This document shows positions 14,280-25,432 of a stretch of DNA of 64,000 bases, piece after piece (positions within the stretch are counted from its first letter, which is position 1; each line of letters begins with the position of its first letter). Source of the stretch: Paenibacillus crassostreae (GTDB lineage: Bacteria > Bacillota > Bacilli > Paenibacillales > Paenibacillaceae); the NCBI RefSeq assembly GCF_001857945.1, contig NZ_CP017770.1, forward strand, positions 2,914,001 to 2,978,000, read 5' to 3'. The position numbers and the translations under genes are program-made. The notes under the pieces were generated by a model. That model had not been told where the DNA came from. It did no database searches and saw only the letters and a list, made by a program, of their open reading frames with translations.

Positions 14280-14463
14280 TAGTTGTAAATAGTACAATTA
14301 AAAGTAGTGCATTCCATACAATACTAATATTAGTTGCATAGAGTACAATTAAATCCGAGGAAATCACCAATTTGCTATCGACCCCTCATTTTAGATGTAT
14401 GTTATACAACTAATTTTCCACTTACTCTCAAACCCTCCCGAATAGATGTGCTTTATGCAACTA
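14280..14463. repeat. Palindrome tetrad array 1
   Basis: Four 21-bp imperfect palindromes at 14280, 14331, 14392 and 14443, so start-to-start spacings are 51, 61 and 51. Units follow TAG(T/A)TG(T/C)(A/G)-N5-T(A/G)CAA(T/C)TA or its reverse; units 1 and 2 point one way, units 3 and 4 the other. Array 2 at 25139-25321 has the same layout, and the spacer between units 2 and 3 is partly conserved too (GAAATCA then TGCTA or GCTA). A fifth, degenerate unit may lie near 14304-14322. Confidence 0.8.
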
Positions 14464-24955: not shown

Positions 24956-25432
24956 AAATTATAATCCTCCTGAGATTATCCAAATTGATACTACGGTTGC
25001 AAATTACGGTCATATAATTCGAGAAAATAAGAAATTAACATGAGTAGCCAATATATGCATACTACAATAACAAACCAAAACACCATACTATTACTATTTA
25101 CTCCGTGGTGGCATCGTGGCGCGTACGGTATAACCTAATAGTTGTAAAAAATACATCTATTCCAGAAGAAATGTAAGCATAGGAAAAGTAGTTGTAAATA
25201 GTACAGTTAGTTTTGATGAAATCATGCAAAATGCTAAAAATGCTATATTTAGATGTAGTTTGTGCAATTAAAAAAGGCAAAAGATTAATATAGCTAGAAT
25301 TAGTTGTACTTTTTGCAATTATTGCTGTGTTGACGATGAACAAATCAAAATCGACAGCTAGGCTGGCATACAATCATGCGAATATTTCTATTAGTGAGCG
25401 AATTGATATGCTTATGGGCGTTGTGTATTGGC
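24956..25432. other. 477-bp gap inside the mannan operon
   Basis: Contains palindrome array 2 (25139-25321) and otherwise AT-rich sequence. A 91-codon frame on the minus strand at 25098-25373 runs through the array and is not coding. Whether GH130 has its own promoter here or depends on read-through through the array cannot be told. Confidence 0.6.
25139..25321. repeat. Palindrome tetrad array 2
   Basis: Four 21-bp units at 25139, 25189, 25250 and 25301, spacings 50, 61 and 51, almost the same as array 1. Units have the form TAGTTGTA or TAGATGTA, N5, then TACATCTA, TACAGTTA or TGCAATTA. The spacer between units 2 and 3 shares GAAATCA and TGCTA with array 1. It sits between the epimerase and GH130 genes of the mannan operon. 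Confidence 0.8.

Follow-up and report, generated by a model that had tools for sequence, protein, structure and literature searches.

The two palindromic blocks of this Paenibacillus crassostreae sequence are copies of a short element, made of four evenly spaced palindromes, that is dispersed through Paenibacillus genomes. The element is matched, family by family, to a protein of about 225 amino acids with a predicted Vsr/EDxHD-like PD-(D/E)XK nuclease domain and a C-terminal winged helix, which is encoded right beside one copy. The pair looks like a new kind of miniature mobile-DNA system, although transposition itself is inferred and not shown.

The tetrad element and its distribution

The preliminary description reported four imperfect 21-bp palindromes at each of two places in the window (the whole 64,000-nucleotide stretch that was analysed, C1:2914001-2978000, C1 being the contig), and this observation is confirmed, the phenomenon being larger than was reported. 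The features are as follows.

14280..14463, minus strand: tetrad element 1 (184 bp), between the end of the cydABCD-like operon and a convergent aspartase/fumarase-type gene
14280..14300, plus strand: unit 1, TAGTTGTAAATAGTACAATTA
14331..14351, plus strand: unit 2, TAGTTGCATAGAGTACAATTA
14392..14412, minus strand: unit 3, TAGATGTATGTTATACAACTA, inverted relative to units 1-2
14443..14463, minus strand: unit 4, TAGATGTGCTTTATGCAACTA, inverted
25139..25321, plus strand: tetrad element 2 (183 bp), in the intergenic region between two minus-strand genes
25139..25159, plus strand: unit 1, TAGTTGTAAAAAATACATCTA
25189..25209, plus strand: unit 2, TAGTTGTAAATAGTACAGTTA
25250..25270, minus strand: unit 3, TAGATGTAGTTTGTGCAATTA, inverted
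25301..25321, minus strand: unit 4, TAGTTGTACTTTTTGCAATTA, inverted

The spacings are 51-61-51 in the first array and 50-61-51 in the second, as had been described. The central trinucleotide shows units 1-2 and 3-4 pointing in opposite directions (TAAAG against CTTTA), and inward, so the whole element is a rough inverted repeat of about 184 bp. One correction is needed, as leave-one-out scoring puts array 1 on the minus strand relative to the family (100.7 against 64.6 bits) and array 2 on the plus strand (132.6 against 55.5 bits).

The window has 32 unit matches with up to 3 mismatches against 15.6 expected, and 0 of 100 shuffles reach 32. In the 4.76-Mb genome two units of the general pattern 28-32 bp apart occur 21 times on the forward strand, and the backwards control pattern occurs 0 times. 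All of the 19 distinct perfect unit matches in the genome lie in a tetrad or a deleted remnant, and chance clustering of randomly spaced units is thus excluded. There are about 14 full copies, at C1 2008233, 2484010, 2755146, 2928280 (array 1), 2939139 (array 2), 3088647, 3133116, 3137587, 3145996, 3147248, 3165447, 3168611, 3217452 (unit 1 decayed) and 3498949, with deleted or partial copies at 1947487, 3054384 and 4423982. Spacings are 50/51-60/61-50/51 apart from one 190-bp copy. All are intergenic, mostly at 3' ends of genes, and three (loci L033, L034 and L036) directly follow the 5S rRNA gene of three rRNA operons, two of these (L034 and L036) sharing 80% identity across the element. We first thought that every copy points with replication, but leave-one-out scoring makes array 1 an exception, and 13 of the 14 full tetrads are oriented with replication away from parS/oriC at about 2.58 Mb.

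Unit columns are conserved (majority-base frequency 0.84) and spacers less so (0.60). Within one genome the two arms of a unit pair no better than shuffled partners, and at positions 4/18 they pair less often than chance (14 observed against 27.0 expected in G001, the handles G001 and so on standing for related genomes and G000 for the window's own). RNAalifold finds 22 pairs with only 1 compensatory change, and there was no Rfam match over the tetrads of 33 loci. This is what a double-stranded site for a protein dimer looks like, and not an RNA or a hairpin.

A sequence-only model (R1) finds the element in 35 of 61 related genomes in 6 of 18 genera, the counts of hits being lower bounds. Relatives carry tens of copies each. 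A looser pair pattern gives 105 forward pairs in G001, 152 in G021, 51 in G007, 42 in G027 and 27 in G039 (another family), with 0 in every control. Spacing is nearly constant (51-61-51, 51-62-51 or 52-62-52) while the palindrome differs by genome, with TAGTTGCA, TAGTTGGA, TAACGGGA, TAGTGGGA, ATTAGGGA, ATTGTTGTA and others. A de novo search by palindromicity alone was too noisy, but adding similarity among the units made it specific.

Copies at unrelated loci share 70-94% identity over exactly the element, and G012 and G017 share a 90% identical copy at different loci. Between argD and argF the own genome has about 400 bp with a tetrad, directly followed by a run of about ten GGCTC/CTCGG pentamers (L029:4201-4260), while G008, G005 and G004 have a gap of tens of bp and no tetrad. 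Other places are held in common across species: the ctpA-side tetrad in G000 and G010, the locus pairs L065/L115 and L108/L046, and the region upstream of the U32 peptidase gene in G000, G001, G007 and G017. The elements thus spread but also persist for a long time. However no insertion was caught in the act, and no clean empty site was found, as absent sites differ from filled ones by more or other DNA. Orthologous loci of G027, G033 and G015 mostly share the element and differ by tandem repeats or other elements, and G012 lacks the G017 copy but holds other repeat DNA there. A separate dispersed repeat of about 60 bp (around AAATATTCACCGCAGTTACGATTAAAGCC) shows up in the flank of a tetrad in G017 (L056:1770-1850) and at about 30 places in G012 and G017. 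In G027 there is an unrelated element of about 215 bp with terminal inverted repeats (TATATAAATTGAACTTG type), at L171:2598-2813 and L164:3011-3233, 90% identical between the two loci and absent from the orthologous G033 locus (L184), which is a conventional MITE. Tetrad units also seem prone to tandem expansion, with local amplification to ten or so copies of a single 51-bp period (one palindrome plus one spacer) at L103:9935-10600 in G001, and also at L155, L185 and L203.

A partner gene with predicted nuclease and winged-helix domains

On reading the genes beside tetrads in unrelated genomes, one gene kept recurring, for the protein of about 225 amino acids with a DUF559-like nuclease part and a winged helix. 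It occurs in 45 of the 61 genomes, with up to 11 copies. All 23 genomes with 5 or more R1 hits carry it, and the 16 without it have 0-3 hits (Fisher p 1.6e-4 over all and 1.1e-3 within the genus, both rough as the genomes are related). Some genomes have the gene but few hits with the single model used, and G010 has 3 hits, with tetrads of the ATTGTTGTA type, and no detectable gene, which makes it a candidate orphaned family.

Of 80 such genes in named Paenibacillaceae genomes (Paenibacillus, Cohnella, Gordonibacillus and others), 50 have a tetrad within 1 kb, against 0 of 240 shuffled loci. Of these 41 are downstream, many 1-25 bp past the stop and eight of them 1 bp past the match end. Tetrads fall off steeply with distance, 40 downstream tetrads being in the first 500 bp against 5 in the next 500, and an earlier set of 30 loci shows the same. 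The other 30 of the 80 genes have no detectable tetrad within 1 kb, though some may have diverged below the threshold. No other gene recurred beside the tetrads in the loci read.

Paralogues in G001 and G007 have an adjacent tetrad with an unrelated palindrome, ATTAGGGAN5TCCCTAAT, and if each paralogue serves its own family we predicted that this palindrome would be dispersed as spaced pairs in those genomes and not generally elsewhere. The search, with AGGGAN5TCCCT, gave 36 and 42 pairs in those two genomes, 9 (a variant) in G012 and 0 in 13 others, including the own genome, and the reversed control gave 0.

Over 48 gene-tetrad pairs, divergence of the winged-helix part tracks divergence of the half-site (Mantel 0.64, and 0.55 after accounting for the nuclease part), whereas the partial correlation for the nuclease part is 0.16, although this does not fully remove shared ancestry. 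The AlphaFold model (mean pLDDT 86.4) has two domains. Structural alignment (VIA-align) puts the first on the catalytic domain of the I-Bth0305I homing endonuclease (PDB 3r3p, Z 11.0 over 96 residues), with 3hrl at Z 10.2, and the second on MepR, MexR, MarR and similar regulators (Z 9-10 over about 70-80 residues). Pfam DUF559 passes its cut-off of 20.6 bits in 2 of 4 proteins (21.2 and 21.5 bits), and Pfam MarR models are below their cut-offs. D69, E82-x-K84, H89 and D94 (numbering of the protein of locus L293) are invariant in 39 sequences, so cutting is probably under selection. A phage or plasmid origin of the nuclease was rejected, the searches giving no phage match and one large Paenibacillus replicon, and defence-system and phage-family libraries gave only marginal matches.

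The own genome's only copy of the gene, C1:3146221-3146887 on the minus strand, lies about 168 kb outside the window, where the preliminary description could not have seen it. It is between two tetrads, one of them 43 bp from its end, and is split between two frames at the junction of nuclease and winged helix, around 3146432-3146436. The two blocks of the window thus belong to a family whose partner gene is probably dead, unless the frameshift is a sequencing error or is read through.

Interpretation and rival explanations

We suggest, with fair confidence, that the tetrad is the dispersed DNA half of a two-part system, the other half being the nuclease-winged-helix protein, encoded once per family with one tetrad beside its gene. 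In this view each palindrome is a double-stranded site for a dimer of the protein, read by the winged helix, and four dimers sit on one helical face, about 5, 6 and 5 turns apart, and are held together as one complex. MarR-type domains bind palindromes of about this size as dimers. The nuclease would then cut the element, and repair or some host factor would copy it to new intergenic sites, while the gene stays put and is mostly inherited vertically. The tetrads would spread in trans, as REPINs do with RAYT genes, and the two blocks of the window would be orphaned copies of a once active family. The data establish the family and its constant spacing, the adjacency of gene and tetrad, the cognate dispersal per paralogue, the model fold with nuclease and winged helix, and the spread of copies. 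Binding by dimers, the joint complex, cutting (including nuclease activity as such) and the role of this protein in driving the copying are inferred. Binding by this protein is likely, but that it drives copying is less sure, as no insertion event or clean junction was seen, and PD-(D/E)XK nucleases do not by themselves join DNA, so that an integration step is missing.

The preliminary description had offered a binding array for a nucleoid or repressor protein, a mobile non-autonomous element or a structured RNA, and its interpretation is partly supported. The first two are right in part, since the block is best read as both a protein-binding array and a dispersed non-autonomous element, while the structured RNA is not supported. 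A nucleoid or repressor role is not excluded, but the association with a nuclease gene, the dispersal of cognate families and the sequence turnover between species point elsewhere.

The main rival, which we think unlikely, is that the tetrad is a host-serving chromosomal site, bound by the protein as an architectural or genome-maintenance factor (nucleoid domains, 3' ends of busy operons), with copies kept by selection at each locus. The conservation of units and spacings with differing spacers, the copies after 5S rRNA genes and the orientation with replication are in its favour, and the tetrads that hold the same intergenic place in different species fit either slow turnover or a retained host function. 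However palindromes turn over completely between species and several families coexist in one genome, the nearest relative, G008, has neither gene nor tetrads in the region compared, an enzyme with invariant catalytic residues is not needed for a scaffold, and the own genome keeps the tetrads with a broken gene.

A more doubtful alternative is that the tetrads are ordinary MITEs, shortened copies of a conventional insertion sequence moved by its DDE or other transposase, with the nuclease-winged-helix protein merely binding them, for instance as a regulator. They are indeed short, non-coding, dispersed, roughly inverted-repeat elements with sharp ends, each starting and ending in TA. However no consistent flanking repeat was found in 14 own and 23 G001 copies, though a bare TA duplication cannot be excluded, and the nuclease gene explains the cognate families. 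The lone half-tetrads examined, in G001, G030 and G039, were local tandem repeats or degenerate copies and gave no longer element with the same ends, this being a reading of those loci and not an exhaustive survey.

A structured RNA, or single-stranded hairpins recognised by an HUH (RAYT-type) transposase, is very unlikely despite the imperfect palindromes with short centres and a spread by an unlinked gene that resembles REPINs (PMC3116915), as there is no covariation and the Y1 transposase (PF01797) is absent from G000, G001, G011, G012, G036, G039 and G046, all of which have tetrads.

Comparison with known systems

The pairing of this nuclease family with fixed four-palindrome arrays appears to be undescribed, as judged from titles and abstracts of open-access papers, among which none linked DUF559 or Vsr-like nucleases to dispersed repeats, and none was found on dispersed repeats and endonucleases in Paenibacillus. 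It is somewhat more likely than not that we have a new class of bacterial miniature mobile element, a four-palindrome element of about 185 bp mobilised in trans by a non-mobile homing-endonuclease-like protein with a winged helix. It would be a REPIN/RAYT analogue that arose independently from a double-strand-cutting nuclease, with several co-evolved, mutually specific nuclease-tetrad pairs in one genome. If this is right, miniature mobile DNA kept going by a separate, vertically inherited gene is not a peculiarity of HUH (RAYT) enzymes but evolved a second time from a homing-type nuclease. It would also name a function for a widespread, unannotated protein family and a cognate target for each paralogue, so that binding specificity could be read from genomes, and the many natural protein-palindrome pairs would make a good test set for winged-helix recognition. 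The fixed 51-61/62-51 geometry predicts a multi-dimer complex, and for annotation the system would explain tens of intergenic blocks per Paenibacillus genome.

With MITEs and other small bacterial repeats (reviewed in PMC10969869), such as the bcr1-type repeats of Bacillus cereus (PMC6542083), the tetrads share being short, non-coding, dispersed and intergenic, but they differ in the internal four-site architecture and in having a nuclease gene as partner, and no target duplication or parent insertion sequence was found at the loci examined.

TnsA of Tn7 also has a PD-(D/E)XK nuclease followed by a winged-helix domain, and is the first Foldseek row for the model (1t0f, E 1.6e-3). However the TM-score is low (0.21), and no TnsB/TnsC-like partner was noticed beside the genes read, nor Tn7-type ends, without a dedicated search, so that the resemblance seen is one of fold only.

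The Vsr/EDxHD homing endonucleases (I-Bth0305I) and DUF559 proteins share the predicted catalytic fold, but homing endonucleases spread their own gene whereas here it is the non-coding tetrads that spread, and no winged-helix fusion with dispersed cognate sites was found in the papers searched.

The closest parallel is with REPIN/RAYT systems (PMC3116915, PMC2817692), which also have short dispersed intergenic palindromic elements, a gene in trans that is distinct for each family, a copy of the element beside the gene in non-coding DNA, co-evolution of element and protein, and long persistence in a lineage. However RAYTs are Y1 HUH transposases, and here the protein is a predicted PD-(D/E)XK nuclease with a winged helix. 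REPINs are inverted doublets thought to act as hairpins, and here there are four units that look like double-stranded dimer-type sites at fixed spacing. With neither a Y1 enzyme nor hairpins, the system is thus an analogue of REPIN/RAYT and not a member.
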